DNA of 64,000 nt from a virus (IMGVR_UViG_3300027976_000036:1-64000); one strand, 5' to 3'. Shown: positions 50,484 to 64,000, counted from the stretch's first letter. The notes: generated by a model not told the origin, from the letters alone. Program-made: numbers and translations.

Positions 50484-50635
50484 TACTTTATATTCCTTTG
50501 AGCGCAAGTGTACTCATGATAAATAGTCTAAGAAGGTGCTAAATTAAGCTTTTCTTGGACTATTGATGTAAAAATGGTGCATGGAATACCATGTCATTGC
50601 ACCTTGCGCAGCTATTATGATTCTCACAGTGAAAC
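50484..50635 (-). promoter_or_regulatory. 152-bp gap upstream of the giant gene with two hairpins
   Basis: In the transcription direction there is a hairpin with the CATGG/CCATG core extended by GGTG/CACC (about 50570-50603), then an imperfect AGTCCAAGAA/TTCTTAGACT hairpin (about 50523-50561), then the giant gene's ribosome-binding site. No T-run and no clear -35/-10 are present. The 12-mer TCACAGTGAAAC (50624-50635) recurs near 63730. This gap is the only candidate site for a promoter dedicated to the giant gene. Confidence 0.4.
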
Positions 50636-51040: not shown

Positions 51041-51080
51041 ATAAAAAAAATGGAAAAAGCCGAAACTTTTTCCATTTTAA
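51041..51080 (-). terminator. Rho-independent terminator for the small-gene array
   Basis: Read on the - strand, AAAATGGAAAAAG pairs with CTTTTTCCATTTT (loop TTTCGG) and runs into a T-tract. It lies just after the stop codon of the 51082-51450 gene and looks like the main end of the 63.7-51 kb transcript. Confidence 0.85.
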
Positions 51081-51843: not shown

Positions 51844-51894
51844 AAATACTCCTTCGCTATCATTGTGATAGGTGCCTCAAGTGAGGCATTCATA
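51844..51894 (-). repeat. Double-hairpin module, divergent copy 1
   Basis: Variable hairpin GCCTCA/TGAGGC (51874-51887), 7 nt after the stop of the 51895 gene. The second hairpin is CTATCA/TGATAG (51857-51871) with loop CAA in place of AATGTT. Then AAGGAGTA and ATG. Confidence 0.6.
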
Positions 51895-52275
51895 TTATTC
51901 TGTCCAATTTTCGAGAGGAAACCAAGTGCTTCCTCTCATGTTTACATACCATTTATTTTCTATTGGTTTAAAAAGATACAGATATTCTGCACCCATGTAA
52001 GGCCAAGACCTTACATTTTTGTGATGTACTGTAGGTACAATCAGTGCAGGGTCTTCACCTCTTCGGTCTTTATAAAAAGAGCATTCCTTCAAAGTTTCAC
52101 CCAATACTGATAAATCTCCGCCTTCAATTAGTTCTACTACGGATTCCATTGTTTTATAGAATTCCAACAACAGACGCCCAGCAGATTCAACACCTCCTGC
52201 ATTATGCAGGTATACTGACTTAACGTCGTAGTTTCCGTTGTTCAACTCAATACCAATAAGTGCTCTTGTACTCAT
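51895..52275 (-). CDS. Conserved phage protein of the MxTRxxIGIE type (126 aa)
   Basis: The N-terminus MSTRALIGIELNNGNY, a mid-region VYLHNAGGVESAGRLLLEFY, GDLSVLGETL, then FYKDRRGED match a protein family common in diverse phages (pattern MATRSxIGxE...IYxHWDGYPxGVGxxLLxHY...LGDLSxLGE...YHRDRGED) that I know as uncharacterised. It keeps the family's order with the central HWDGY replaced by HNAGG. Start has AAAGGAGAAAA upstream. Confidence 0.8.
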   Translation of the reverse strand: MSTRALIGIELNNGNYDVKSVYLHNAGGVESAGRLLLEFYKTMESVVELIEGGDLSVLGETLKECSFYKDRRGEDPALIVPTVHHKNVRSWPYMGAEYLYLFKPIENKWYVNMRGSTWFPLENWTE

Positions 52276-52284
52276 TTTTCTCCT

Positions 52285-52389
52285 TTAAACCATTAGCGAT
52301 GTTGCAAACACTATATACACAAACACAAGAATCTTCATAAGAAAATTTTCTTTGTGTATATAAGAATTTATTTTATCTTCAATTAACAT
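52285..52389 (-). CDS. Very small membrane peptide (34 aa)
   Basis: The frame starts at the ATG at 52389 and ends 9 bp before the next gene. The C-terminal half is a hydrophobic helix (MKILVFVYIVFATSLMV). An 11-codon frame starting at the module's own ATG (52414) overlaps its start and could feed ribosomes to it. It fills a gap of about 200 bp. Moderate to low confidence because of its length. Confidence 0.45.
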   Translation of the reverse strand: MLIEDKINSYIHKENFLMKILVFVYIVFATSLMV

Positions 52390-52414
52390 TCTTTTCAGAT
52401 GAAATTTTCTTCAT

Positions 52415-52472
52415 ATAATGTACTCCTATATACTGCGACATTGCAGAATGTGAGGCACATGTGCCTCATTCG
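52415..52472 (-). repeat. Double-hairpin module, copy 2
   Basis: Variable hairpin GAGGCAC/GTGCCTC at 52452-52467, 5 nt after the stop codon; conserved hairpin CTGC-AATGTC-GCAG at 52433-52446; then AGGAGTACATTAT and ATG. Confidence 0.9.
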
Positions 52473-53183
52473 TTATTCTTCGTCTTCATCATCATCATCA
52501 GGTGGATATAATTTCGCATATTGTTCATCAACAAGATGCATGAAATTGTGTCCAAGCGATGTACGAAACCTGGAGTTAAATGTTTGGGTTAATTCTTCGA
52601 ATTCTTGATATTCCAATGGAATATCAAGCCTTATACATTCTTCAATAGAATGTATAATCGCATCATACTCACAGTGTTGTGATATAATAATGTTTAAGTT
52701 GTCATCAACATGGTGTTCAGCGTGGAACAAATCGTGAAAAAACCACGAAATATTTTCGTATTTCATGACAATTTGAATTTTTCTAGTCCCATGTTCATTC
52801 CACCAATAAACAAAAGGTATTAATACATCGACTTTTTCTTCAAGAATAATTTGCCTATTTTTGTTGTTTATATAGAATCCATTTGCCGAAAACCGGCGCT
52901 TTTTCCATTTGCTTGGAAATTCATCATCATCTTCCTCTTCTGGATTCATGTATGGAATGAATGAATATGGCCAATCTTCTTCACCCATTCCCCACCTTAT
53001 GATTGTATCATAATCTGGCATTTTTTCTTTGTTTTTATTGCAATACCTCTTGTAAGCATCAAATGCTGACTTTGGTATTACCGTTTCATTTAGGCCGATT
53101 TCCCCGTTTCCAAAGCTTGAAAAATTCGTTGATTTTTTAAAGATAAATTCAATTTTATCTTTGTCTACTGTATGGTATTCCAT
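52473..53183 (-). CDS. Hypothetical protein (236 aa) with acidic C-terminus
   Basis: Start at 53183 directly after AGGAGTACATT; a frame extended to 53201 only translates the ribosome-binding site. The protein has a central His-rich piece (WFFHDLFHAEHHVDDN) that could bind metal, many Trp/Tyr residues and an Asp/Glu tail (DDDDEDEE). No family recognised. Confidence 0.75.
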   Translation of the reverse strand: MEYHTVDKDKIEFIFKKSTNFSSFGNGEIGLNETVIPKSAFDAYKRYCNKNKEKMPDYDTIIRWGMGEEDWPYSFIPYMNPEEEDDDEFPSKWKKRRFSANGFYINNKNRQIILEEKVDVLIPFVYWWNEHGTRKIQIVMKYENISWFFHDLFHAEHHVDDNLNIIISQHCEYDAIIHSIEECIRLDIPLEYQEFEELTQTFNSRFRTSLGHNFMHLVDEQYAKLYPPDDDDEDEE

Positions 53184-53245
53184 AATGTACTCCTTAGTCA
53201 TAGCAACATTGCTGTGAAATGGGAAATTAATCCCAAGTCGTAGAT
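53184..53245 (-). repeat. Double-hairpin module, copy 3 (AGC-type stem)
   Basis: Variable hairpin GGGA/TCCC at 53221-53234; second hairpin AGC-AATGTT-GCT at 53202-53213. The loop is unchanged while the stem pairs differ from the CTGC type. AAGGAGTACATT then ATG. Confidence 0.85.
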
Positions 53246-53869
53246 TTATTTCAGATATTCTTTTGTTACAAGGCGCTGTAACGAAGCCATCGCGTCTTTA
53301 ATGGCTTCTCTTTCTGAAGTAATACCGTCGCCTGATTCAATGACGTCACCATCTTCATCTTCAATAGTCCATAGAAAGAACGAATCATGAGTAAAACCCT
53401 CTCTGTGTTCAACTATCTCAACACACAGAGCACTGAACATTTTCTCAAAGTTGTCTTTTGAGTATTTCGAATCTTTTCCAAGAACCCTTTCTGAGTGATT
53501 GTTCCAAAAATTGGAAGTTTCCTCTCTTTTGATGTAGAAAAACCCAAATAAACCTGTGTCCCAACCACTAGCACATACGCTAGTATGCATGGTTAGTCCA
53601 CTATGGTCAGTGGCGGAAATGCAATACACATGATACCCTCTTTCTTCCCCAAAGAGATTAACCATTTCTTCTATACTTTCACAATCAAAATTTGCAAAAT
53701 CAACTCCCAAAGGTTTAATTTTGTCTATATTGGATTTTGGTCCTTCATAAGACTTGTGAAAACTACAAAATCCAATTCCATAATCCAAAATTTCGTCTTG
53801 AAAAAGTTGGGTTACTAGATCTTGCGAGCATTCCATGTCTTCTTGAACGGTAATTTTGTACTTAATCAT
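53246..53869 (-). CDS. Conserved phage protein with SGWDTGLFGF motif (207 aa)
   Basis: Contains SVCASGWDTGLFGFFYIKREE, resembling a known but uncharacterised phage family with SGWDxGQVGFIYV followed by an acidic segment, and a C-terminal domain WTIEDEDGDVIESGDG. Start ATG at 53869 follows AGGAGTACATT. Function unknown. Confidence 0.75.
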   Translation of the reverse strand: MIKYKITVQEDMECSQDLVTQLFQDEILDYGIGFCSFHKSYEGPKSNIDKIKPLGVDFANFDCESIEEMVNLFGEERGYHVYCISATDHSGLTMHTSVCASGWDTGLFGFFYIKREETSNFWNNHSERVLGKDSKYSKDNFEKMFSALCVEIVEHREGFTHDSFFLWTIEDEDGDVIESGDGITSEREAIKDAMASLQRLVTKEYLK

Positions 53870-53924
53870 AATGTACTCCTACATACTGCGACATTGCAGC
53901 ATATGAGGCTAAATGCCTCATTCG
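53870..53924 (-). repeat. Double-hairpin module, copy 4
   Basis: Variable hairpin GAGGC/GCCTC at 53905-53919, 5 nt after the stop; conserved hairpin CTGC-AATGTC-GCAG at 53886-53899; AGGAGTACATT and ATG. Confidence 0.9.
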
Positions 53925-54389
53925 TTAAGATAGTGTTTTGTTATAAACAAAGCTCTCATATTCATGTAAAGCTGTTTCAGCTCTTTGGTATAAGTCTCTG
54001 GCTTCTGAGAAAAATGCCGATATCGACACCAGGTGGTTTGGTATCGATATTAATGCATTTTCAATTGCAATGTCTCTATTTTCAAAGTGTTCAGCGTTCA
54101 GAACACTGTTCAAAGCACTTTTGATTTTCTCTAGGTGCATTGAGCAAAAATATATGGCCGATTCTATTGGCGTTGCTCCTATTTTTGACCAAATAACAGG
54201 AAGAGAGCTTTCTTTAATTAAAGAATTGATAATCTTCAACATTGCTTCGCAATTGGTTTCGAACCTACAAATTGACATTATACTTTTGTTTGATTCCCAA
54301 AAAGAATACAAGAATTGTATTTCCTTTTCAAAATCGTCATTTTTGTGGTACGCCTGTATCATTTTTGACTCATTCTTAAATTTAGACAT
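53925..54389 (-). CDS. Hypothetical all-helical protein (154 aa), paralogue-like group
   Basis: Helical throughout, with an aromatic helix (AIYFCSMHLEKIKSAL) and a C-terminal helix (FFSEARDLYQRAETALHEYESF). The order resembles the proteins at 54465, 58974 and 59531, which suggests a diverged gene family. Start has AAGGAAACAAT upstream, one of the few that lack AGGAGTA. Confidence 0.75.
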   Translation of the reverse strand: MSKFKNESKMIQAYHKNDDFEKEIQFLYSFWESNKSIMSICRFETNCEAMLKIINSLIKESSLPVIWSKIGATPIESAIYFCSMHLEKIKSALNSVLNAEHFENRDIAIENALISIPNHLVSISAFFSEARDLYQRAETALHEYESFVYNKTLS

Positions 54390-54464
54390 ATTGTTTCCTT
54401 ACAAACAGTAGCAACATTGCTACATTATCCAACATTTCTGTTGGATATCGGTTTAAAAGATGGT
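54390..54464 (-). repeat. Double-hairpin module, copy 5 (TAGC-type stem)
   Basis: Variable hairpin ATCCAACA/TGTTGGAT at 54427-54446; second hairpin GTAGC-AATGTT-GCTAC at 54408-54423. A second in-frame TAA for the upstream gene lies at 54453, 6 nt from the hairpin, the spacing seen elsewhere. Confidence 0.88.
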
Positions 54465-55007
54465 TTAAAAAAGAGGAACTTTTTCCAATCTTTTTAAGGA
54501 ATCGTTTTCGAAATCCTGCGCAAAATTGTTATACTTTGCAATCAGGTTTTCCAATTGTCCCTCTAAGTCTCTTGCACCATACATGAGGACTTCTATCTCA
54601 TAAAATTCAGCCGCCAGCCTCTCAAAAACATAATCAATCAAATTTCTGTTTTTTTCTGATTCGACAATGTCAAGGTTTTCGAATTGTGTTTGCCATGGAG
54701 TAAAATACTTAATCCGATCACACATCAAATCTAATAACCAAATAATCCGGAATATAGAATGCCTATATGCCTCTTCTGGATCTCCATGGAGTTCTTTAGA
54801 ATTTTCATTTTTCTGTGACTTGAAGAATTTTGAGATCATAAGTTGAAACAACAATTGCAACACATTTGCCGTCTCAACTCTAGTGACATAACCCGTATCC
54901 GTTTTCGGAGTGTGTCCAACTGACACTAGATATTTTTTCATAACACTAAAGTCTTTCTCGAAGCCTGTAATGTTATTGTAAATCACAACCGTTTTTCTTT
55001 CGTTCAT
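54465..55007 (-). CDS. Hypothetical all-helical protein (180 aa), paralogue-like group
   Basis: MNERKTVVIYNN... followed by helices (IFRIIWLLDLMCDRIKYF, and GARDLEGQLENLIAKYNNF). Start follows AGGAGTACGTT. Similar layout to the 53925 protein. A four-codon in-frame extension to a second TAA at 54453 would restore the usual stop-to-hairpin spacing. Confidence 0.75.
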   Translation of the reverse strand: MNERKTVVIYNNITGFEKDFSVMKKYLVSVGHTPKTDTGYVTRVETANVLQLLFQLMISKFFKSQKNENSKELHGDPEEAYRHSIFRIIWLLDLMCDRIKYFTPWQTQFENLDIVESEKNRNLIDYVFERLAAEFYEIEVLMYGARDLEGQLENLIAKYNNFAQDFENDSLKRLEKVPLF

Positions 55008-55067
55008 AACGTACTCCTAGATATCTGCAACATTGCAGAATATCTCGGCATTTCTGCCGAGATTCGT
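55008..55067 (-). repeat. Double-hairpin module, copy 6
   Basis: Variable hairpin CTCGGCA/TGCCGAG at 55044-55061; conserved hairpin CTGC-AATGTT-GCAG at 55025-55038 with flanking ATAT pairs. The annotated stop of the upstream gene is 69 nt away, but an in-frame TAA sits at 55068, 6 nt from the hairpin. Confidence 0.9.
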
Positions 55068-55130
55068 TTAATTATTCGAAGCGACGATTTACAATTTTTT
55101 TCTTACCACTTTTAAACCCCTAAAACCAAT

Positions 55131-55322
55131 CTAACGGATCAAATTCTGGTTTTGGTTTGGTTTAATTCCTGCTGCAAGCAAAGCAAATATTGCCAAAGGA
55201 CCAAAAAGCCAACCAAAGAAGGACCAACTTCCGGCGCAGCGATTATATCTATTAGCAAGTATTGCTGCTATAATAGCAAAGTAGAATGAGAACATAATTA
55301 TAATAAACCAATATTCGTTCAT
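55131..55322 (-). CDS. Small membrane protein (63 aa), C-terminus possibly truncated
   Basis: Two hydrophobic spans (WFIIIMFSFYFAIIAAILA and WSFFGWLFGPLAIFALLAAG) and the motif NR-SWSF-G-LFGPLA, shared with the 33705 protein. It ends at TAG (55131); the frame continues to TAA (55089) and TAA (55068), the last placed exactly where module spacing predicts a stop. This looks like C-terminal decay rather than read-through, because two stops intervene. Start follows AGGAGTACATT. Confidence 0.78.
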   Translation of the reverse strand: MNEYWFIIIMFSFYFAIIAAILANRYNRCAGSWSFFGWLFGPLAIFALLAAGIKPNQNQNLIR

Positions 55323-55382
55323 AATGTACTCCTAGATATTCTGCAACATTGCAGAATATCTCGGCATTTCTACCGAGATTCG
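55323..55382 (-). repeat. Double-hairpin module, copy 7
   Basis: Variable hairpin CTCGG/CCGAG at 55360-55377 with one C-A mismatch, 5 nt after the stop; conserved hairpin CTGC-AATGTT-GCAG at 55341-55354; AGGAGTACATT. Confidence 0.9.
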
Positions 55383-55817
55383 TTAACGAATAAAATATTG
55401 GTTAAGATATGTGATAAACATATTAGTTACACGCACTCTATCATCTAGCTCAAATCCACACACGGTGGGATCGCCCAAGAAGTTGCGCACTGCACCTTCG
55501 TAATCCGTTAAGTTTGCGCACAGTACGCTGTCATAGCAATATGACATAAATTTCGCAGGTGAAATTTTAATCAGTTCTCGCCATTTGTCTTCTTTTTCTT
55601 GAAAAGAAGACAAGTCAATTAAGCTACTAAGTTCTTTTTCCTTGTCGCTTAACTCAAAGATTTCGTGGGGCAAAATCTTTAATTGATTCAAAATTTTGAT
55701 AGAAGTAGCTTGAGCTACTTCTATTTCTTCTATTAGGCTTCTCCTTTTTTCGAAATCATTTTTGATTGTTTCGATTTTGTTCTTTAACAAGTTTATCTTA
55801 TATTCTAGTTCTTTCAT
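55383..55817 (-). CDS. Hypothetical coiled-coil protein (144 aa)
   Basis: The N-terminal 70 residues are a clear coiled coil (MKELEYKINLLKNKIETI...), followed by a shorter C-terminal domain with three Cys (YCYDSVLCANL, TVCGFELDD). No motif recognised. Start follows AGGAGTACATT. Confidence 0.72.
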   Translation of the reverse strand: MKELEYKINLLKNKIETIKNDFEKRRSLIEEIEVAQATSIKILNQLKILPHEIFELSDKEKELSSLIDLSSFQEKEDKWRELIKISPAKFMSYCYDSVLCANLTDYEGAVRNFLGDPTVCGFELDDRVRVTNMFITYLNQYFIR

Positions 55818-55881
55818 AATGTACTCCTAGATATCTGCAACATTGCAGTATATCTCGGCATTTCTGCCGAGATTCGTCTGA
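55818..55881 (-). repeat. Double-hairpin module, copy 8
   Basis: Variable hairpin CTCGGCA/TGCCGAG at 55854-55871, the same sequence as copy 6; conserved hairpin CTGC-AATGTT-GCAG at 55835-55848; AGGAGTACATT. The nearest in-frame stop of the upstream gene at the usual spacing is 55882, not its first stop at 55999. Confidence 0.9.
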
Positions 55882-55998
55882 TTATTCGCTTGGTATAGTC
55901 AATGTAAAATTGTGTTTCTTGAATGACTCTACTTTAGAAAATATAGATTGTGCTTTTTTAAGCGTTTCTTCTGATTTTTTAAGTGCTTCTTCTGATTT

Positions 55999-56604
55999 TT
56001 AATTGGCTGTACTCAGAGCCAATTCAGCTTTTTTAACTTTGTCGGTTGTAGATTGTATCGCAACAAATATAGTTTCAATGTCAGGTTTTTTTGTGAGACG
56101 ATATTCTAACTCTAGAATCTCTTCTTCTAATTCATATGCCCGTATATGATGCCATACTTTTTCACCTGCTTTCTTAGAATAAAAATCAGCTTTTGCTTCT
56201 TCTTTTTTTGCCATAACTAAGTTATTTTGGACATAATAACGTTTCATGTTGTCGAGAGCCGTCTTAAATTTTTTTATATCAGAAGGTCGCGCTTTTTCTG
56301 CTCTATATTCTTTTACTTTTTGTTCATCCATTTGCGTTTGTAACTTTTCCATTAGCTTATAATCTGATACTTGTGATTTATAATCTGATACTTGTGATTT
56401 ATAATCTGATACTTGTGATTTATAATTTTGTGCTATTTGTGTCCATGCATCGGCATCTTCTTTATAAATCTTAGCTTCAGCGAGTAATTCTTCAACGACT
56501 CTTATTCTGTCTTTGTCTAGTGGTTCATTATCATCTGCATTAGCAGAACTAACACTTATGAATGAAAAAGCGACAGCACCAAGAATCTTACAAAACTTAT
56601 TCAT
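55999..56604 (-). CDS. Exported coiled-coil protein with tandem YKSQVSD repeats, stop codon interrupts the frame
   Basis: 201 residues from the ATG at 56604 (after AGGAGTAAC); an extension to 56628 only reads the module. A signal peptide (KILGAVAFSFISVSSANA) directs it to the periplasm. A helical body follows with three exact 21-bp repeats coding SQVSDYK units. After TAA (55999) the same frame stays open for 38 codons (KSEEALKK, KSEETLKK, then QSIFSKVESF...) to TAA at 55882, which lies at the normal distance from the next module. This points to a nonsense mutation or read-through of a 240-residue protein. Confidence 0.78.
   Translation of the reverse strand: MNKFCKILGAVAFSFISVSSANADDNEPLDKDRIRVVEELLAEAKIYKEDADAWTQIAQNYKSQVSDYKSQVSDYKSQVSDYKLMEKLQTQMDEQKVKEYRAEKARPSDIKKFKTALDNMKRYYVQNNLVMAKKEEAKADFYSKKAGEKVWHHIRAYELEEEILELEYRLTKKPDIETIFVAIQSTTDKVKKAELALSTAN
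56358..56420 (-). repeat. Three tandem 21-bp repeats inside the exported coiled-coil gene
   Basis: Three identical 21-bp copies in register with the codons encode YKSQVSD repeats. Identity at the DNA level indicates recent tandem duplication. Confidence 0.92.
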
Positions 56605-56688
56605 GTTACTCCTAGATATCTGCAACATTGCAGAATTTTAGAATATGATAAACAATTTGTCTGTTTATCATATTCTAAACGTCATATG
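56605..56688 (-). repeat. Double-hairpin module, copy 9, with an 18-bp variable stem
   Basis: Variable hairpin of 18 perfect base pairs (56637-56654 with 56662-56679), the longest in the array, 9 nt after the stop of the DUF932 gene; conserved hairpin CTGC-AATGTT-GCAG at 56620-56633; AGGAGTAAC. Confidence 0.92.
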
Positions 56689-57843
56689 TTATGCGACGAG
56701 CTGATACAGATACTGAAGCGCAGGTTGCGCCGTCGTATCAGTGTTCAGTACATCCTCATAACGAGAACGCAATCGAACCGTCTCAAGATTTACGTCACCG
56801 GTGTATCCATGGATATTCGTTCGCTTGCTGCGAAGAGTCCAAGAGGTTACGCCTTGAGCCCACCCGAAAACCGTTGATGTGTCAATATCCTCGACACCCG
56901 GCTGATCATTGTCCAAGTGATTCAGAAAATCAACGTGAAGTTTTTCCAACGACTTCGTCTGGCGATCCGACAAATCATTGTCAGTCAGAGACTTGCCGAA
57001 AAGATTTGAGAAGAATTCCCTCTTTTCACTGTCAACAATCTTACGGCTAAGCATCTTGTCCAAAGTCTTCTGATATTGAGACGTAGATTCCACTACGTCC
57101 ACAAGCGAAGACTTCCAATCATCCAATAGGATATAAGCGTTTGCCGTGCGCTTTAGATTACCATTTCCAATGGCGGCTTGGGCCTTTACGTGCATCATCG
57201 TATTCATGCACACGGTAGCCATAATGGTCTTTCTTGGACTAAGCGCCATCGAACCATCAAGGCTACCCATGATGGTCAAAAGATACGCATTTCCGTCCGC
57301 GAAACCACCTTCCCCAATATCTCCAACGAGATACTGCATACAGGCTTTCGCCCCATTGTCAAAAACAATCAATCCAAAAGGAATGAGTGCTTCTTCCAAT
57401 TCTTTAGGCGGAAGAAGAGCATTCTCCCAACTAAAATTGGCCCATGACGCGCTGACAGAAGCATTCATTTCGAATTGCTTCTCCCCCCAAGTTGCGACAA
57501 CTTGGGAACCACTTGTAGGAAGATATAATCCCGGATTCTTCACACTTGGCATTACCCGTGGCAACACATGGATTCCGAAGTTTTCGGAATCCAGTCCAAC
57601 CTTTTCCAATAACTGCAAACCAGAAGTAGGAGTTTCCTCCATAACTTCTCCCAAACCGTGCCAAGCTTTTCCGGCCTGTGGACTAAAAACCGCAGCAAAT
57701 CCAAAGGCATGACCATTCGGATTATCGGTAGTGACATCTTCGCTACCGATTGCCAACTTAGAAACCTTAGAAGCCTTAGCGGGCTTCTCGATGTCGAAGT
57801 TGGTATTAGCGAAGATACTGGCGATAGAATTGGTATTCGACAT
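56689..57843 (-). CDS. DUF932 phage/plasmid-like protein (TIGR03299 type)
   Basis: 384 residues with the DUF932 signature KAWHGLGEVMEE (about residue 60), then the usual beta-rich body (VSASWANFSWENALLPP, LVGDIGEGG) and C-terminal helices ending in TVFGWAQGVTSWTL...TVRLRSRYEDVL. The family is common on phages and plasmids and has no established function. The gene is GC-richer than its small neighbours, which suggests separate acquisition or strong expression. Start follows AAGAGAGTAAATA without a double-hairpin module on its upstream side. Confidence 0.9.
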   Translation of the reverse strand: MSNTNSIASIFANTNFDIEKPAKASKVSKLAIGSEDVTTDNPNGHAFGFAAVFSPQAGKAWHGLGEVMEETPTSGLQLLEKVGLDSENFGIHVLPRVMPSVKNPGLYLPTSGSQVVATWGEKQFEMNASVSASWANFSWENALLPPKELEEALIPFGLIVFDNGAKACMQYLVGDIGEGGFADGNAYLLTIMGSLDGSMALSPRKTIMATVCMNTMMHVKAQAAIGNGNLKRTANAYILLDDWKSSLVDVVESTSQYQKTLDKMLSRKIVDSEKREFFSNLFGKSLTDNDLSDRQTKSLEKLHVDFLNHLDNDQPGVEDIDTSTVFGWAQGVTSWTLRSKRTNIHGYTGDVNLETVRLRSRYEDVLNTDTTAQPALQYLYQLVA

Positions 57844-57877
57844 TATTTACTCTCTTTCGAATGTATGTTTAACAATC

Positions 57878-58168
57878 TCAACTAATCTTGTGCAAGAGTT
57901 TGTACAAGATTTCTAAATCCCTTTCGATTTCAGATTGTATACTTGGTAGCAATGAGTCGTGCTTCATTATAATACCTGTTTCCAGGTTGAGCGTCATTGT
58001 CAAGTAATCATCTACATCGTCAGGACAATATGCTTCAATCAAGTTAGAATTTCCAACTATCACTATCGCATAATTTTCATTTACGAATGTAATATGTTCT
58101 TCCCCGCTTTCTATACACATAAAAACTTTCATGTGCGAGAAAATGATTTTTAAATTATCGCATATCAT
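57878..58168 (-). CDS. Hypothetical protein (96 aa)
   Basis: MICDNLKIIFSHM... has beta-rich content and a helical end (SEIERDLEILYKLLHKI). Ends with TAG 34 bp before the DUF932 gene. Start follows AGAAGGATC. No motif recognised. Confidence 0.65.
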   Translation of the reverse strand: MICDNLKIIFSHMKVFMCIESGEEHITFVNENYAIVIVGNSNLIEAYCPDDVDDYLTMTLNLETGIIMKHDSLLPSIQSEIERDLEILYKLLHKIS

Positions 58169-58231
58169 GATCCTTCTCAGCCCTTGGTAACATTTCCAAG
58201 GATATCAGAAATTAATCTGATATTCGGTACT
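58169..58231 (-). repeat. Double-hairpin module, divergent copy 10
   Basis: Variable hairpin ATATCAGA/TCTGATAT at 58202-58223, 9 nt after the stop; second hairpin CCTTGG-AAATGTTA-CCAAGG at 58182-58201, whose stem is unrelated to other copies while the loop keeps AATGTT. The ribosome-binding site is AGAAGG. Confidence 0.8.
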
Positions 58232-58432
58232 CTAACAAAATTTACGATAGCCATGAACTTGTGTAAACTCATAAACTTCGTAATATACATTACTGGGGCA
58301 TGGTTTTTGATTGTGTTTGTATTTTGCCTTTAGCGCAGCCTCAAAACTCTTATGTCTTGAAATATAAGAGTTTACTGGTTCATTATTTATTTCGCAAAAT
58401 ACAAAAAAATATCTTCTGTGAGGATATCTCAA
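58232..58432 (-). CDS. Small hypothetical protein (66 aa)
   Basis: MRYPHRRYFFVFCE... is rich in Tyr, Phe and Lys. The ATG overlaps the upstream stop by 4 bp, so it is translationally coupled to the 58429 gene and needs no module. No motif recognised. Confidence 0.65.
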   Translation of the reverse strand: MRYPHRRYFFVFCEINNEPVNSYISRHKSFEAALKAKYKHNQKPCPSNVYYEVYEFTQVHGYRKFC

Positions 58433-58908
58433 ATTTCTTCTCCTGTATCTCTTAAGATTCGTATTGTGAAATCATGAATGTGAGATTGATGAAGCAATTT
58501 TGCTTCTCTAATCTTTTCTTCGTTCTTAGAGTTCATAAGTAAAAATTCCGAGAACAAAGTTATATATCTTTGAATCTCGAAAAGGATACTATGAATCTTG
58601 TCAAGACTTTCTTGTGTAAGCATATCATCAATATATAGCATGATGAATGTTGGCACTTGCGATACACAAAACTCTAACGAGTCTTTTGTTGTGTCCAAGA
58701 CAGTTTTGTACTTTGGGCAGTAACCCGAAAAGTACTTCCTCTCATAATCTGAAAGTACGATTCGTGCCAACTTCTGTAAAAATATTTTCTCTTTAGGATC
58801 ATCCTCCCTTTTGGACCTATTCCAAATTTTCTGGAAGATTTTCCAATTCTCAAGGTTTTCCTGGGGGATGTTAATTGTTGTCTCTTGGGTAGTTTTGATT
58901 ATTTCCAT
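58429..58908 (-). CDS. Hypothetical all-helical protein (159 aa)
   Basis: Starts after AGGAGTACATC. Several amphipathic helices (TFIMLYIDDMLTQESLDKIHSIL, and a Glu/Lys-rich end). Possibly a member of the same helical group as its upstream neighbours. No known domain. Confidence 0.72.
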   Translation of the reverse strand: MEIIKTTQETTINIPQENLENWKIFQKIWNRSKREDDPKEKIFLQKLARIVLSDYERKYFSGYCPKYKTVLDTTKDSLEFCVSQVPTFIMLYIDDMLTQESLDKIHSILFEIQRYITLFSEFLLMNSKNEEKIREAKLLHQSHIHDFTIRILRDTGEEI

Positions 58909-58973
58909 GATGTACTCCTAGAAATCTGCGACATTGCAGAATACGAACCCCGTGAAAAGGGTTCATTCGTTTG
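58909..58973 (-). repeat. Double-hairpin module, copy 11
   Basis: Variable hairpin GAACCC/GGGTTC at 58945-58964, 9 nt after the stop; conserved hairpin CTGC-AATGTC-GCAG at 58926-58939; AGGAGTACATC. Confidence 0.9.
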
Positions 58974-59471
58974 TTAGATATTTGTATCATCAGATAACTT
59001 GACGATATAAGAATGATATGCGTCTTTCGCATTTTCCATGGCCACGAGAAATCCATTTGATTCATTGATTACATTCTGGATTCTGTCTAAAATCCAACTC
59101 ACACGCACGCAAACGTTTTTATATTCTTCAAAAGCTTGCTCGTTAAGCGCATAACTGTTTATATTAAACGACATCAAACTTTTTACGTTTGATATTGCCA
59201 TGTTTATTCTGGTGTAATACCAAAACATAGCTTTTTGTTTAAGAGAGAGAACTAAGTATTCTTCTTCCTCTTTTTCAACTGAGAAATATTGAAACTGCAC
59301 GTATTCCAATAGATCAGAAATGACACTGAGAATGAATTCATTCTCATAAAAATTTTCAGTATCCTGATAAAGCTTTATTCTTTGGAATAGACGTTGAACG
59401 TTTCCAAAAGATTTTTCGAATTCATAATTATTATATATCTCAATTGAAAGCTCTTTCATCAGATTAGACAT
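58974..59471 (-). CDS. Hypothetical all-helical protein (165 aa), paralogue-like group
   Basis: Start at 59471 immediately after AGGAGTACATC; a longer frame to 59525 translates the module itself and is rejected. Helices include FWYYTRINMAISNVKSL and SWILDRIQNVINESNGF...AKDAYHSYIV, matching the layout of the 53925, 54465 and 59531 proteins. Confidence 0.75.
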   Translation of the reverse strand: MSNLMKELSIEIYNNYEFEKSFGNVQRLFQRIKLYQDTENFYENEFILSVISDLLEYVQFQYFSVEKEEEEYLVLSLKQKAMFWYYTRINMAISNVKSLMSFNINSYALNEQAFEEYKNVCVRVSWILDRIQNVINESNGFLVAMENAKDAYHSYIVKLSDDTNI

Positions 59472-59530
59472 GATGTACTCCTTAGTAATAGCAACATTGC
59501 TATATTTGCCAACAGATGTTGGCAATCGTA
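59472..59530 (-). repeat. Double-hairpin module, copy 12 (TAGC-type stem)
   Basis: Variable hairpin GCCAAC/GTTGGC at 59508-59523, 7 nt after the stop; second hairpin ATAGC-AATGTT-GCTAT at 59488-59503; AAGGAGTACATC. Confidence 0.9.
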
Positions 59531-59980
59531 TTATGTTTTTGTTATCTCAATCTCATACATGGCGACCAACATTCCTAGATTATCCTCCGCATCTTGTTCC
59601 GCTTTTTTGAAAAAAGTGAGTCTCTTCACAAACTCGCGAAACTTAGATAACTCGACATTAAGGATTTCATAGTTATAGTTTTCATGACTTGGAAAGCCTG
59701 TGCCATTTTTGATGTATGCTTCATCGACATTGTCAACTTCTTGTTGTATTCTCATTAAGAAGTTGTTAATAACATTGCTGATGCCATGATCGGCATAGCT
59801 TTTTGTTTTATCATCTTTTTGGAAATGCTCCTGTCCGGAGATAGTTGCATAACTAATTGCTCTTAAATAAAAGAGAGCTAGATTTACTTCCATGATTCTG
59901 TGATGGTGAAATTTCTTCCACGCGAAAGTTATGTCTTCCAATAATAATTGGGAACAAAATTTGAATTTAACGTTAGACAT
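59531..59980 (-). CDS. Hypothetical all-helical protein (149 aa), paralogue-like group
   Basis: Starts after AAGGAGTATATC. Helices with LALFYLRAISYATIS and a C-terminal FFKKAEQDAEDNLGMLVAMYEI similar in position to those of the other helical family members. No known domain. Confidence 0.75.
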   Translation of the reverse strand: MSNVKFKFCSQLLLEDITFAWKKFHHHRIMEVNLALFYLRAISYATISGQEHFQKDDKTKSYADHGISNVINNFLMRIQQEVDNVDEAYIKNGTGFPSHENYNYEILNVELSKFREFVKRLTFFKKAEQDAEDNLGMLVAMYEIEITKT

Positions 59981-60045
59981 GATATACTCCTTGGATACTG
60001 CGACATTGCAGAATATGAATCAATTTTCATTGATTCATTCGTTGA
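59981..60045 (-). repeat. Double-hairpin module, copy 13
   Basis: Variable hairpin GAATCAA/TTGATTC at 60017-60036, 9 nt after the stop; conserved hairpin CTGC-AATGTC-GCAG at 59998-60011; AAGGAGTATATC. Confidence 0.9.
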
Positions 60046-60318
60046 TTATTTAGAAATATTTTTTAGCAATATTTCTTGCAAAATAAGAAGCTTTTCTAAA
60101 TTTTCTTCTTCTTCTCTATGGTATCGGAACTTTTCCCTATCAAATCCTTTATAAAAGACTAACCACTGACTATTGAGAGTCAGTCTTTTCTTTAAATCGA
60201 TAATTGTTTTTTCGGCAATTAAGATTGCCACTTTTGATTCTGGAGACATTTTATTATTTTCCTTCGAATCAGCTTTTTCAAGCTCTTCGAACCAATTGAA
60301 ATTGTAGTCTTCTTTCAT
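60046..60318 (-). CDS. Small charged helical protein (90 aa)
   Basis: MKEDYNFNWFEELEKADSKE... followed by a Lys/Glu-rich helical body (RHREEEENLEKLLIL). Possibly a coiled coil. Starts after AGGAGTACATC. Function unknown. Confidence 0.7.
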   Translation of the reverse strand: MKEDYNFNWFEELEKADSKENNKMSPESKVAILIAEKTIIDLKKRLTLNSQWLVFYKGFDREKFRYHREEEENLEKLLILQEILLKNISK

Positions 60319-60381
60319 GATGTACTCCTAGATATGCTGCAACATTGCAGCATATGAATCCCTTTTACAGGATTCATTCGT
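60319..60381 (-). repeat. Double-hairpin module, copy 14, with perfect 11-bp second stem
   Basis: Variable hairpin GAATCC/GGATTC at 60356-60375, 6 nt after the stop; conserved hairpin extended to ATATGCTGCAA/TTGCAGCATAT at 60332-60355 without mismatch; AGGAGTACATC. Confidence 0.92.
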
Positions 60382-60873
60382 TTATCCTTCGATGGCTACC
60401 AACTTTTGATCGAAGTCTGTGGGCATATCCTCTTGCCAATTTGGAAATCCGAATTTGCAGAAAACATCATCGAAACTTGACACCAAATTGATTCCGTAGA
60501 CGACGGTCAACTCGGCGTCTCCGTATGAAAAATCCGCGTTTAATTCCAAACGCTCCATGAATTCACTTTGCACATCAAAAGCATACTTCTGTTCAAGATT
60601 GTAAAGCAAATCGTTGATGTGCAGAATTTCAAAGTCCGTATGGGTGACTTCCTTGCTCCAAGCATTCAGAGTTTGAAGGTCTTTGAGTTCTTTCAACTGT
60701 GAACTCAAAGTCTTCACAATCTCTTTGAGTTCAAAAGTTGTCTCAAAGACGCTTTGCTCAAGCGTCTTCAAGTTTGCAATGTTTTCCTCTAGATCTTTCC
60801 CATATTGAGGAATCAAAGCATTCAGTGTAGCAATGCTGGCGGTTAATGCTTTCTCTTTGTTGTCAATTTCCAT
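60382..60873 (-). CDS. Hypothetical protein with N-terminal coiled coil (163 aa)
   Basis: About 90 residues of coiled coil (KALTASIATLNALIPQYGKDLEENIANLK...) then a mixed domain (ELNADFSYGDAELTVVYGINLV). Starts after AGGAGTACAAT. No motif recognised. Confidence 0.72.
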   Translation of the reverse strand: MEIDNKEKALTASIATLNALIPQYGKDLEENIANLKTLEQSVFETTFELKEIVKTLSSQLKELKDLQTLNAWSKEVTHTDFEILHINDLLYNLEQKYAFDVQSEFMERLELNADFSYGDAELTVVYGINLVSSFDDVFCKFGFPNWQEDMPTDFDQKLVAIEG

Positions 60874-60937
60874 ATTGTACTCCTAAATATACTGCAACAT
60901 TGCAGCATATGAATCCTGTAAAAAAGGATTCATTCGT
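60874..60937 (-). repeat. Double-hairpin module, copy 15
   Basis: Variable hairpin GAATCCT/AGGATTC at 60911-60931, 6 nt after the stop; conserved hairpin CTGC-AATGTT-GCAG at 60892-60905; AGGAGTACAAT. Confidence 0.9.
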
Positions 60938-61213
60938 TTAACAAGAATATTGTGCACAGACGATGTGGAAATCGTCATAATCATCTTCTGCGAATTTGCA
61001 GACGATTCCCCAGAAGATAGTTGCATGTTCTGCAAATTGCCAACCTTCTTCTGAAGTTGGCATCATATCATTGATATCGTAACAATTGTTACGATATCGA
61101 AAGAAACTGGCATCTGTATCAGGTTTTCTATAGTGATCGAAATCACTTTTCTCTTCTTTTGTCAGATCGTTCCAACAAAGGATTTTGCATTTTTCTGAAT
61201 TCTTAATTTCCAT
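60938..61213 (-). CDS. Hypothetical phage protein (91 aa) with RYRNNCYDINDMM motif
   Basis: Contains CWNDLTKEEKSDFDHY, FFRYRNNCYDINDM and a C-terminal beta part (ATIFWGIVCKFAEDD). This order (a FxRYxxxxYDxxDxM block then SxxxGIVxxF) is shared with a widespread uncharacterised phage family as I remember it. Starts after AGGAGTACATT. Confidence 0.72.
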   Translation of the reverse strand: MEIKNSEKCKILCWNDLTKEEKSDFDHYRKPDTDASFFRYRNNCYDINDMMPTSEEGWQFAEHATIFWGIVCKFAEDDYDDFHIVCAQYSC

Positions 61214-61276
61214 AATGTACTCCTGGATATCTGCGACATTGCAGTATATGAATCAATTTTTCATTGATTCATTCGT
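61214..61276 (-). repeat. Double-hairpin module, copy 16
   Basis: Variable hairpin GAATCAA/TTGATTC at 61250-61270, 6 nt after the stop; conserved hairpin CTGC-AATGTC-GCAG at 61231-61244; AGGAGTACATT. Confidence 0.9.
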
Positions 61277-61444
61277 TTAAAGATTTCTTTCTATCCTCCT
61301 TAATTTACCTTTTGGAATTCGAGAAGCAATTGCGTCTCTAATTTCTTTTAAATCTTTAATTTTTTGTTCTTTTGTTATTGCATGATTAGTGATATCACTA
61401 ATCAGACATTCAACCATGATTAAAATATCTTCAAGAGATTCCAT
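61277..61444 (-). CDS. Small hypothetical helical protein (55 aa)
   Basis: Short but well supported: ATG after AGGAGTATATT, modules on both sides and a stop 6 nt from the next hairpin. MESLEDILIMVECL... continues into a basic helix (KGKLRRIERNL). Acidic N-terminal helix and basic C-terminus. Function unknown. Confidence 0.8.
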   Translation of the reverse strand: MESLEDILIMVECLISDITNHAITKEQKIKDLKEIRDAIASRIPKGKLRRIERNL

Positions 61445-61508
61445 AATATACTCCTGGATATCTGCGACATTGCAGCATATAGAACCCTTTTTATAGGGTT
61501 CTGGGCGT
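61445..61508 (-). repeat. Double-hairpin module, copy 17
   Basis: Variable hairpin AGAACCCT/AGGGTTCT at 61481-61502, 6 nt after the stop; conserved hairpin CTGC-AATGTC-GCAG at 61462-61475; AGGAGTATATT. Confidence 0.9.
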
Positions 61509-61964
61509 TTAGTTTTCTTTCAGGTACTGAGCCATCATTCTCTCGATGGAAGCCATAGGAACGCTATGTACGTTCCTCTCAGCGAATTTTCGACAGAGTT
61601 CGTCCCTCTTCAAAGAGGTTGACAAATCGAACTCTTCGAATAGATTGACGAACTCGACATTATATCCTCGTTTTTCCGCAAAATAAGTATACTGTTTCCA
61701 ATGAACTTTCATTATGTTCGTGTTGTTCACGAACACATATGGGGTAAAACTATCCAAAGCTGCCACGAATTTTTTGAAGCAACTGCCATGAGCAGTTGCC
61801 AATTGGGCGGGGTTCCAATCATAATGACCATTTTTCATGAAATGATCATCTGCCGAGCAGACGACCATTTCTTCAGTTGACAGTTGCATTTCCTTTCGGA
61901 AATTGTCGATAAAGAAATCTTTGCCCATTCCGGGCACGCCTTGCATGATATAAACGGTGTTCAT
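61509..61964 (-). CDS. P-loop kinase-like protein (AAA_33 / polynucleotide-kinase-like)
   Basis: 151 residues. Walker A GVPGMGKDFFIDN at residue 9, a second block CSADDHFMKNGHYDWNPAQLATAHGSCFKKF typical of NEDD4-binding-protein-2/PNK-like kinases, then VFVNNTNIMKVHW and GYNVEFVNL. This family includes 5'-end polynucleotide kinases; the usual phosphatase domain is absent, so it would be a kinase only. It could pair with the RNA ligase at 32.6 kb. Starts after AAGGAGTATA. Confidence 0.85.
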   Translation of the reverse strand: MNTVYIMQGVPGMGKDFFIDNFRKEMQLSTEEMVVCSADDHFMKNGHYDWNPAQLATAHGSCFKKFVAALDSFTPYVFVNNTNIMKVHWKQYTYFAEKRGYNVEFVNLFEEFDLSTSLKRDELCRKFAERNVHSVPMASIERMMAQYLKEN

Positions 61965-62030
61965 TATACTCCTTAGCTAATAGCGACATTGCTATGTTTC
62001 CCAATGCTTTCATTGGAAATTCGTTAATCA
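61965..62030 (-). repeat. Double-hairpin module, copy 18 (TAGC-type stem)
   Basis: Variable hairpin CCAATG/CATTGG extended by TTT/AAA at 61997-62019, 11 nt after the stop; second hairpin ATAGC-AATGTC-GCTAT at 61980-61995; AAGGAGTATA. Confidence 0.88.
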
Positions 62031-62360
62031 TTAATCATGCACAGCGATTAGAAGGTCTTCGAAAAGAACTCCTAACTTTTTCTGTACTAAGTTAATCCAA
62101 CTCTTGTTCCCTTCATACGAAGAGACTTCCAAATCATCTAAAACATGATTTACTATGGGTATTATATCCATTCCCGTCAATATGCAATATTGGAACTTTC
62201 CAATATCAAAGCATTCGTCCGTTTTTTCTAACAATACGGACTCGAAATCTTCTGGGTCAGTGACCCCGTTCAGTTCGCTAAGTGAATTGAACACGATTTC
62301 TGAAAATCGCGAAAACATGATTACTTCGATATTTTCAAAGTTCTTTTTATTTTTCTTCAT
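62031..62360 (-). CDS. Hypothetical protein (109 aa)
   Basis: Starts MKKNKKNFENIEVIMFSRF after AGGAGTACATT. Helical, acidic, with a C-terminal amphipathic helix (LVQKKLGVLFEDLLIAVHD). No known domain. Confidence 0.72.
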   Translation of the reverse strand: MKKNKKNFENIEVIMFSRFSEIVFNSLSELNGVTDPEDFESVLLEKTDECFDIGKFQYCILTGMDIIPIVNHVLDDLEVSSYEGNKSWINLVQKKLGVLFEDLLIAVHD

Positions 62361-62431
62361 AATGTACTCCTAGATATCTGCGACATTGCAGCATATGAAT
62401 CAATTTTTCATTGATTCATTCGTTCGTTCGT
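62361..62431 (-). repeat. Double-hairpin module, copy 19
   Basis: Variable hairpin GAATCAA/TTGATTC at 62397-62417; conserved hairpin CTGC-AATGTC-GCAG at 62378-62391; AGGAGTACATT. The ACGAA spacer after the stop is repeated (CGAACGAACG), giving 14 nt. Confidence 0.9.
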
Positions 62432-62644
62432 TTAGATATAAAATCTACACTTTTGGTGTAAATCCCAAATTCTCCACTTGAAATCATAAGAGATTTCAAA
62501 TCTTATAATCATTTCTTCGAGCATGTCCACCGTGAGACACAGAGATGTTTCAAAAGGACTCTTATTTGCCTTGTCCATCAAGAAGTTCCTAAGCTCTCTT
62601 ATAAAGCTTAGTTTTTCTTCCCAAGTCAATTCTGATACTTTCAT
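62432..62644 (-). CDS. Small hypothetical protein (70 aa)
   Basis: MKVSELTWEEKLSFIRELRNFLMDK... is a charged helical protein. Start follows AAAGGAAAAAA. The upstream side has a terminator instead of a module, so a promoter may lie in 62650-62713, an AT-only stretch. Confidence 0.72.
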   Translation of the reverse strand: MKVSELTWEEKLSFIRELRNFLMDKANKSPFETSLCLTVDMLEEMIIRFEISYDFKWRIWDLHQKCRFYI

Positions 62645-62713
62645 TTTTTTCCTTTACAATATTTTTGAATGAAATATTTATTCATTCATTCGATTTTTTT
62701 AAAAATAAAATAA

Positions 62714-62749
62714 ATAAATGTTGGGAAGTTTTATTTTCCCAACATTTAT
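62714..62749 (-). terminator. Hairpin terminator between the 62759 and 62432 genes
   Basis: A 14-bp perfect stem (62714-62727 with 62736-62749) with an 8-nt loop. On the - strand it is followed by T-rich sequence (ATTTATTTTATTTTT). It may end most transcripts of the first genes in the array. Confidence 0.8.
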
Positions 62750-62758
62750 TTTATTTTG

Positions 62759-62986
62759 TTAGTGAATCGTCGGGTTGGAGCTCATGATCCTTTGCTCTTC
62801 AGCAAGAAATCCGCCGATGTTTCCGTCGAGAAACATCTTAATGGCCCATTTGCACTTGGAGAGAATCTTGTTCTCACTTTCCCCTTCGAAATTGCCGAGA
62901 GTCTTCAGCGTTTCCGCTGCTGCTATCATCACGAACATATTGGCCGCGAGGCCAATGGCCTCCAACTTCACACATTTCTCACACAT
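62759..62986 (-). CDS. Small hypothetical protein (75 aa) with N-terminal CxxC
   Basis: MCEKCVKLEAIGLAANMF... has a CxxC pair at the N-terminus and a helical body. The start follows TTTAGGAAAAAAA. A competing + strand frame over the same DNA lacks a ribosome-binding site and context. GC-richer than flanking DNA. Confidence 0.7.
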   Translation of the reverse strand: MCEKCVKLEAIGLAANMFVMIAAAETLKTLGNFEGESENKILSKCKWAIKMFLDGNIGGFLAEEQRIMSSNPTIH

Positions 62987-63076
62987 TTTTTTTTCCTAAA
63001 TTTGTTTTACTTTTGAATGATATACTCAAAAGCCGGCATGATTGCCAGTTCCCAACCTTTAAAAGTTGGGAATCGT
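62987..63076 (-). repeat. Double-hairpin module, divergent copy 20
   Basis: Variable hairpin TTCCCAAC/GTTGGGAA at 63049-63072, 5 nt after the stop; second hairpin CTGGCA-ATCA-TGCCGG at 63033-63048 (loop not AATGTT); a further CTTTTGA/TCAAAAG hairpin at 63010-63032. Nearly the same arrangement as copy 21. Confidence 0.75.
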
Positions 63077-63508
63077 TTAGTATTCTGTAAATTGGACGAA
63101 GGAGAAGGTCGAGACCTTCTCCGTCGTTCCGTCTTCTTTTACGACTTCCGAGCTTTTGCGCTCGGAAGTCGCATAAAATGCGGTTTCGCCTTGGTCTGAG
63201 ATCATTTCGACTAAGTTGTGGACAAGGCCAAAGTGGCCTTGAACTAGATATTGGAGATGACTGCGGCCGAACTCCTTATTAATCTTAGGTTGTGGATAGA
63301 TTTGGTCCAAGATAGTGTTTAATGTGTTTCGCGCAAGTTGTCGCACTTGCATTCGTGTGAAAGAAGGGTCTACGTTCGGCATCAAATACGCGAAGCACAT
63401 TATGCTTCGGTCTTTATCATCGTCCTCTCTAAGCGGCATATTCTGTGCCGCTTCTTTCTGTTCTTTGCTCCACTTACTAACAGGATGATTTGTTAAATTA
63501 ACAAACAT
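63077..63508 (-). CDS. Hypothetical protein (143 aa), N-terminal NLTNHPVSKWS motif
   Basis: Start at 63508 after GGAGAAAGAAAA; a longer frame to 63580 overlaps the module. The N-terminus MFVNLTNHPVSKWSKEQKEAA is a motif I have seen in other small phage and defence-island proteins of unknown function. The rest is helical with an Arg-rich stretch (RMQVRQLARNTL) and a beta C-terminus. GC-richer than its neighbours. Confidence 0.75.
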   Translation of the reverse strand: MFVNLTNHPVSKWSKEQKEAAQNMPLREDDDKDRSIMCFAYLMPNVDPSFTRMQVRQLARNTLNTILDQIYPQPKINKEFGRSHLQYLVQGHFGLVHNLVEMISDQGETAFYATSERKSSEVVKEDGTTEKVSTFSFVQFTEY

Positions 63509-63606
63509 TTTTCTTTCTCCAACATTTATTTTACTTTTGAATGATATACTCAAAAGCTGACATGATTGCCAGTCTCCCAACTTTAAAAGTTGGGATTCGT
63601 TAAAAG
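63509..63606 (-). repeat. Double-hairpin module, divergent copy 21
   Basis: Variable hairpin TCCCAACTT/AAGTTGGGA at 63575-63595; second hairpin CTGGCA-ATCA-TGTCAG at 63557-63572; CTTTTGA/TCAAAAG hairpin at 63534-63556. Shares about 40 bp with copy 20, so the two arose by duplication. Confidence 0.75.
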
Positions 63607-63678
63607 TTAAAGTAGAACCAATATCATCGGGCTAAAGAATAGCCCAATGATTGCCATGGAAAAGATAAACATTTTCAT
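63607..63678 (-). CDS. Tiny hydrophobic peptide (23 aa), first gene of the array
   Basis: MKMFIFSMAIIGLFFSPMILVLL starts after CAAGGAATCATT and ends 12 nt before a module hairpin. It is one membrane-spanning helix. Despite its length, the ribosome-binding site and module position support expression. Confidence 0.55.
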   Translation of the reverse strand: MKMFIFSMAIIGLFFSPMILVLL

Positions 63679-63689
63679 AATGATTCCTT

Positions 63690-64000
63690 GAGAGTCAATT
63701 GGAGAGGATTCTCCATTTTGGAACAAAATGTTTCACTGTGAAACAAAATGTTCCGTTGTTTCAATTGTCTAACCTGGAAAACTTTAATAAAATCCAAGGT
63801 TTGTGACATTCAACATTGCAGATATTAATCAATGCAACGTTTCGCCATTAAAGGTGGCGAGTTTTTGAAACTGTAAGTATATGATTATATTGGGTATATT
63901 GAGTATATTTGAGCAATATGGGGATTAACAAATCCACCCACACTTTTCTAAACTTTTCTCAAACTTATCAACTTTATTCAATTAAATCAAATACTCACAG
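63690..64000 (-). promoter_or_regulatory. Gene-free 310-bp leader upstream of the small-gene array
   Basis: No gene is seen. It holds a GGAGA/TCTCC hairpin (63701-63714), a GTTTCA-CTG-TGAAAC palindrome flanked by GGAACA/TGTTCC (63719-63753), a degenerate module (CGCCA/TGGCG at about 63852-63868 and CTGCAATGTTG near 63812-63822), and AT-rich DNA with TATAAT on the - strand (63884-63889) but no well-spaced -35. A promoter for the - strand transcript is expected here. Confidence 0.4.

Follow-up and report, generated by a model that had tools for sequence, protein, structure and literature searches.

How is a long row of small phage genes, all lying on one strand, expressed, and what marks off each gene from the next? 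The question is raised by the small-gene array on the minus strand, at 51.8-63.6 kb, of IMGVR_UViG_3300027976_000036, a virus record of 64,142 bases, nearly all of which is covered by the 64,000-nucleotide stretch analysed here (the window). A sequence-only reading had proposed that the same double-hairpin module recurs in about 21 gaps of this array, and that its variable stems always pair with themselves. We confirm the observation: the repeated two-hairpin unit is real, and its signal is strong.

Anatomy of the unit

The composite unit is present in 18 gaps of the array and looser variants occur in 3 more (51843, 62986 and 63508), which gives the proposed number of 21. Read 5' to 3', the upstream stop codon is followed by a spacer, hairpin 1, 3-5 nt, hairpin 2, 5-9 nt, the Shine-Dalgarno (SD) motif AGGAG, about 6 nt and ATG. 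Hairpin 1 is variable: it has 5-19 pairs, about 15 different arms, all self-pairing, and 12 distinct loops in the 18 copies. Hairpin 2 has 4 pairs and the loop AAUGUY, with AU pairs that often lengthen the stem; its usual forms are CTGC-AATGTY-GCAG and TAGC-AATGTY-GCTA (type B), and the same loop, AATGTY, is found in all 17 exact copies.

The fixed order of elements ahead of SD and ATG, another claim of the sequence-only reading, is borne out by rigid spacings. The two hairpins are separated by exactly 3 nt in 15 of the 18 copies (standard deviation 0.7 nt), hairpin 2 and SD by 5-9 nt and SD and ATG by 2-7 nt (1.1 nt each), values that vary far less than does the distance from the upstream stop codon, which is mostly 3-17 nt, usually with (A)CGA at its end, and ranges from 3 to 125 nt. 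The two longest distances, 125 and 67 nt, both follow genes whose 3' ends are judged decayed because reading on reaches an apparent older stop just ahead of the unit; counted from that stop, both become short. Within 55876-56604 (minus strand), an in-frame TAA lies 39 codons ahead of a second stop, with 21-nt tandem repeats, and the gene looks prematurely stopped. At 55060-55160 (minus strand), the gene 55131-55322 seems to be frame-shifted at its 3' end, the other frame staying open as far as an older stop that immediately precedes the unit.

Two further claims stand in part. An ATAT-like linker had been described between the hairpins; the spacing of 3-5 nt is there, but in predicted folds the ATAT often pairs with ATAT downstream of hairpin 2, so that several copies have no single-stranded linker. 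The SD is unpaired in most of these folds. The module had also been placed between most consecutive genes, which holds, except that five array genes (57843, 58432, 52275, 51763 and 51510) have no unit.

Repetition, conserved pairing and copying

The sequence GCAATGTYGC is matched exactly at 17 places in the window, each in a minus-strand gap between 52435 and 62389, against an expectation of 0.16 from shuffled sequence; none of 100 shuffles reached 17. A covariance model of hairpin 2 and the SD tail recovered 18 copies, which had also trained it, with E-values between 5e-13 and 1e-4; the best match elsewhere in the window had E=0.33. Folding z-scores below -2 together with at least two hairpins were found in 19 of 20 array gaps, the share of gaps in five distant relatives being 5-18%, and two hairpins lie upstream of 20 of the 38 SD starts in the window, compared with 12% in 155 other loci.

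The pairing is kept while the sequence changes. When the 7 nt ending 3 nt before hairpin 2 were taken at a fixed offset, a test unbiased by the choice of arms, 13 of 17 copies had a perfect partner a short way upstream, compared with 3% for swapped arms and 6.5% at random places of the array; the variable stems do pair with themselves. The four internal non-Watson-Crick pairs of hairpin 1 read as G-U in the RNA in every case, never as A-C. For the stem of hairpin 2, the covariation score was 0.395 versus 0.129 in shuffled alignments, a value that none of 500 shuffles reached, and slid registers scored lower. Two of its four pairs are altered on both sides (C-G to U-A; U-A to A-U or G-C) with the loop fixed, although these may represent few events, since the copies are related, and kinship means that the counts of changes are not probabilities. 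The covariation on which the sequence-only reading depended is thus seen in the hairpin-2 score and in the arm-swap and fixed-offset tests, and compensatory change, which would mark a leader acting at the RNA level, appears both here and between homologous leaders elsewhere (see below).

Some units are only 3 edits apart over 61-64 nt, yet the coding DNA on either side of them is unrelated, its 20-40% identity being no more than chance. As the array proteins show no paralogy among themselves, the unit must have been copied or homogenised without its gene. A unit travelling with its own gene family was rejected on the same ground.

Related single-hairpin leaders in other phages

Viral contigs were scanned for GCAATGTYGC followed by AGGAGTA; the figures given here refer to the matches listed, to which later scans contributed a few. 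Of at least 125 sites listed, 59 have a stem lengthened by two or more Watson-Crick pairs, where about 8 were expected; a correctly placed ATG is also present at 34 of the 59. Among de-duplicated listed sites with GC-loop-GC, AGGAG and ATG, the stem is extended by at least two pairs in 12 of 21 cases with the AATGTY loop and in 4 of 26 with other loops (Fisher p 0.005; 0.007 after merging homologues). The preference for AATGTY in other phages looks real, with few independent cases. The stems of the listed AATGTY sites differ (ACGGC, ACTGC, CCGC, CAGC, CGGGC, GAGC, AGGC, GGGC, TAGC), and single hairpin-2-like leaders, combining the AAUGUY loop and AGGAGUA with other stems, are present in some ten further phage lineages. 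Each record with a related leader has one or at most a few matches, one of them strong.

Leaders of the ACGGC and ACTGC groups precede homologous early-gene proteins of 66-82 aa with about 40% identity, so that between them one pair has changed on both sides (G-C to T-A) with the loop kept. In the ACTGC group (contigs L127, L128 and L023), the hairpin begins 6-7 nt past a -10-like hexamer that has TTGACA 17 nt ahead of it, and would therefore lie at the 5' end of the mRNA. L023 and L128 also have a sister hairpin with the loop AACAUC. In the unrelated phages L039 (700-733, minus strand) and L093, two hairpins, SD, ATG and an AAUGUC loop are found, and these may be single-copy relatives of the whole unit. 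The array of units is so far unique to this phage.

Comparison with known elements

No near relative of the window was found among phage records by DNA. The DnaE-type polymerase is about 43% identical to those of other viral contigs, several of 100-190 kb; the array genes are absent from these relatives, whereas the replication block is common to both. Searched against 40 fragmentary records of the DnaE relatives, the covariance model gave four weak matches (E 0.02-0.06) and no array. A strict-pattern scan of the genome collection found nothing, and a looser pattern four single, chance-like matches. Rfam gave no match at the gathering score and no credible match at E<=1. A terminator on the sense strand was rejected, there being no U tract (2 of the 8 nt after hairpin 1 are T, maximum 3), and one on the antisense strand was unconvincing, with weak tails (median 4 of 8 T). 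A sigma-70 promoter within the units was also rejected, just 2 of 18 overlapping a sigma-70-like match on the minus strand.

The closest known kind of element is the start-associated sequence (SAS) of cluster K mycobacteriophages, with its extended form (ESAS). SAS/ESAS are present in 11-19 copies per genome by the ribosome-binding site of small non-structural genes, in one orientation and with function unknown, and have an upstream inverted repeat at about half of the sites (PMC3203893, PMC11373665). Pope et al. (2011) noted that departures in the 17-bp ESAS repeats generally do not support RNA pairing (PMC3203893), and a SigA-like promoter within ESAS has been described in the Adephagia paper (PMC11373665). 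The unit shares with them its association with starts, the single orientation and the place by the ribosome-binding site. It differs in keeping its pairing through sequence change, in having two hairpins and in lacking a recurring sigma-70-like promoter; the 13-bp SAS (GGGATAGGAGCCC) has no match in the window with up to two mismatches.

The promoter early stem-loop (PeSL) cassettes of T4-type phages are compared here by description, their defining features being taken from a mention in PMC4503421 and from general knowledge. As so described, they resemble the unit in being intergenic stem-loops of small-gene regions with a possible role in shuffling. Unlike PeSL, which by that account have an early promoter in the cassette and a stem-loop able to terminate, the units show no recurring promoter, phage-specific promoters being outside the reach of that search, and their hairpins have no U tract; the second, fixed-loop hairpin by the SD is a further difference from PeSL as characterised there. 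In cluster O mycobacteriophages, a 17-bp inverted repeat occurs in about 34 copies, many of them intergenic (PMC4351075). Its arms are invariant, its orientation is meaningless and some copies are intragenic, whereas the arms of the unit vary, its orientation is constant and it always precedes a start.

The RNA-phage coat operator, the T4 gene 32 leader and the ompA-type 5' hairpin are RNA operators or 5' stabilising hairpins. Like them, the unit places a hairpin with a constant loop near the SD, or a hairpin at a 5' end; unlike them, it occurs in 18-21 copies in one array and in tandem with a variable hairpin, and its protein partner is only putative. The layout had been judged distinct from PeSL and SAS/ESAS, and remains so by its two hairpins, its kept pairing, the absence of SAS and the lack of a recurring promoter. 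The unit matches no described element, from which RNA pairing and tandem hairpins set it apart.

Possible functions of the unit

We propose, with a probability of about 60%, that the unit is an RNA leader copied ahead of cistrons, each of which would be an independent unit of translation and stability under shared control. A long minus-strand transcript would carry the small genes, with a unit ahead of individual cistrons. Hairpin 2 would be the functional leader hairpin, its loop read by a phage or host factor, and/or a 5' stabilising hairpin, like its promoter-proximal single-copy relatives elsewhere. Hairpin 1 would be a sequence-tolerant insulator that parts hairpin 2 and the ribosome-binding site from the structure and translation of the upstream gene, and it might also be a barrier to 3' decay. 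The least certain step would be a cut between the hairpins, leaving one hairpin at each cistron end, which fits the layout and is not needed. More tentatively, the AAUGUY hairpin by AGGAGUA could be a phage-wide RNA operator with a trans-acting factor, multiplied here, together with an insulating hairpin, to build a post-transcriptional regulon of about 20 genes whose mRNA units would be independent and jointly controlled.

Several points weigh against the leader proposal. The copies are not independent, and the type B stem possibly arose in one or few events. The array is known from one fragmentary genome, as sequence alone. Outside this phage, a convincing two-hairpin layout is seen in L039 and L093 at most, hairpin-1-like hairpins are not clearly above background (8 of 11 versus 44% at random places), and the loop preference rests on small numbers among the matches listed. 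The symmetric stems of the promoter-proximal cases could be DNA operators, and a possible sigma-like phage protein (34273-35178, weak) leaves room for a non-sigma-70 promoter in the unit.

One possible alternative is processing punctuation, in which an endonuclease would cut between the hairpins to give monocistronic mRNAs with hairpin 2 at the 5' and hairpin 1 at the 3' end. The constant 3-5 nt between the hairpins is in keeping with this, the two hairpins would be natural protective ends, and the single hairpin-2-like leaders elsewhere sit just past promoter-like sequence. However, several copies (60318, 60873, 55322) have every linker base paired and no gap between the hairpins, and the units have no recognisable RNase site. 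The sequence-only reading had seen in such cuts the origin of independent, stable mRNAs; its interpretation is partly supported, and a cut between the hairpins seems possible from their arrangement.

The same reading had offered gene shuffling as another role. As a DNA-level cassette, PeSL-like or integron-like, the units would be homology patches or recombination sites. Near-identical units do occur amid unrelated coding DNA, the hairpin-1 sequences of neighbours are alike (Mantel r=0.31, p=0.005), and both an 11-codon remnant and genes in decay are present in the array; copying of units from one gap to another is clear. Patches of homology would, however, have to be identical in sequence, and hairpin 1 has some 15 differing arms that always pair; moreover, the distance to the start codon is fixed and no recombinase was found among the proteins scanned. 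We consider shuffling unlikely as the main role, because selection keeps pairing and not sequence identity.

It is improbable that a regulator binds hairpin 2 as a palindromic site, or that this hairpin forms the core of an ESAS-like promoter specific to the phage. Its stems are palindromic, a possible sigma-like protein is encoded, and in L127 and L128 a similar palindrome adjoins a promoter as well as an oppositely oriented upstream gene that looks Cro-like by eye. Against a DNA site stand the asymmetry of the invariant centre and the constant orientation, the low number of units that overlap a sigma-70-like match on the minus strand (2 of 18), the internal mismatches of hairpin 1 (4 G-U versus 0 A-C) and its freely changing arms, which a promoter sequence would not tolerate.

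A pseudoknot that joins the loop AAUGU to an ACAUU located between SD and AUG, hiding the ribosome-binding site until remodelled, is very improbable: four pairs are possible in 17 of 18 copies (63% expected with shuffled tails) and most tail transitions preserve G-U pairs, but no two-sided change is seen, each pair is kept in just 13-18 of the 18 copies, the loop geometry is tight, and the conservation of loop and tail may merely reflect copying.

Genomic setting of the array

The array lies beyond an open reading frame (ORF) of 5095 aa at 35220-50507 (minus strand), which has no Pfam or PHROG match; its identity as a giant virion RNA polymerase was rejected for want of a family match. The array genes tested are mostly without family, except that one is kinase-like, one belongs to DUF932 and some match unknown PHROGs weakly. 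The plus strand carries a replication block with DnaB, ribonucleotide reductase, a DnaE-type polymerase, rIIA/B, GroEL and an RNA ligase. At 5398-6489 (plus strand) lies an adenylosuccinate synthetase gene, PurA/PurZ-like, under both cut-offs; elsewhere in the block are IMPDH/GMP-reductase-like, dUTPase and thymidylate synthase genes, which together with it may point to a modified purine metabolism. The product of 34273-35178 (plus strand) has a weak match to the sigma-70 family (E about 1e-4) and is a possible phage sigma factor.

The units and neighbouring features are listed in Table 1. Genuine terminators are also found on the plus strand of the window. At 63676-63820 (minus strand), a nested-hairpin leader (GGAACATTTTGTTTCACAGTGAAACATTTTGTTCC, GGAGAATCCTCTCC) precedes a hydrophobic ORF of 23 aa, and near 63820 (minus strand) ATATCTGCAATGTTG is a partial copy of the unit.

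Table 1. Two-hairpin units of the array, flanking terminators and related leaders in other contigs (positions in the window unless a contig is named)
Position	Strand	Feature	Context
63509..63595	-	variant, three hairpins, loop AATCAT	ahead of gene 63077-63508
62987..63072	-	variant, three hairpins, loop AATCAT	ahead of gene 62759-62986
62712..62751	-	terminator-type hairpin, U-rich tail	upstream side of array
62361..62419	-	unit, hairpin 1 ATGAATCAAT/ATTGATTCAT, hairpin 2 CTGC-AATGTC-GCAG, AGGAG	ahead of gene 62031-62360
61965..62019	-	unit, type B hairpin 2 TAGC-AATGTC-GCTA	ahead of kinase-like gene 61509-61964
61445..61502	-	unit, hairpin 1 AGAACCCT/AGGGTTCT	ahead of gene 61277-61444
61214..61272	-	unit, 3 edits from unit at 62361	ahead of gene 60938-61213
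60874..60933	-	unit, hairpin 2 extended, no free linker	ahead of gene 60382-60873
60319..60377	-	unit, hairpin 2 extended (8 pairs predicted), no free linker	ahead of gene 60046-60318
59981..60038	-	unit	ahead of gene 59531-59980
59472..59525	-	unit, type B hairpin 2	ahead of gene 58974-59471
58909..58966	-	unit, hairpin 1 ATGAACCCT/GGGGTTCGT	ahead of gene 58429-58908
58169..58223	-	divergent unit, hairpin 1 ATATCAGA/TCTGATAT, hairpin 2 CTTGG-AAATGTTA-CCAAG, E=1.3e-4	ahead of gene 57878-58168
56605..56679	-	unit, 19-bp hairpin 1	ahead of gene 55999-56604
55818..55873	-	unit, hairpin 1 ATCTCGGCA/TGCCGAGAT	ahead of gene 55383-55817
55323..55379	-	unit, hairpin 2 extended	ahead of gene 55131-55322
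55008..55063	-	unit, 3 edits from unit at 55818	ahead of gene 54465-55007
54390..54447	-	unit, type B hairpin 2	ahead of gene 53925-54389
53870..53921	-	unit, hairpin 1 ATGAGGC/GCCTCAT	ahead of gene 53246-53869
53184..53235	-	unit, type B-like hairpin 2, shortest hairpin 1 (5 pairs)	ahead of gene 52473-53183
52417..52468	-	unit	ahead of 11-codon ORF, probable gene remnant
51844..51889	-	variant, hairpin 1 TGCCTC/GAGGCA, hairpin 2 CTATC-ACAAT-GATAG, AAGGAG	ATG 51843; outside covariance-model set
51047..51078	-	intrinsic terminator with U tract	downstream side of array
L127 1218-1257; L128 8860-8899 and about 11395; L023		AAUGUY hairpin, promoter-proximal	ahead of 68-69 aa early gene

Implications

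The even expression of long rows of small genes from one transcript is poorly understood in phages. If the proposal is true, a structure-conserved leader ahead of each gene would add a new layer of regulation and give a handle for finding its RNA-binding partner, and the compact leader would be a ready part for multi-gene expression cassettes. Since unrelated phages have single hairpins that share this loop and SD, the idea can be tested in cultured phages.

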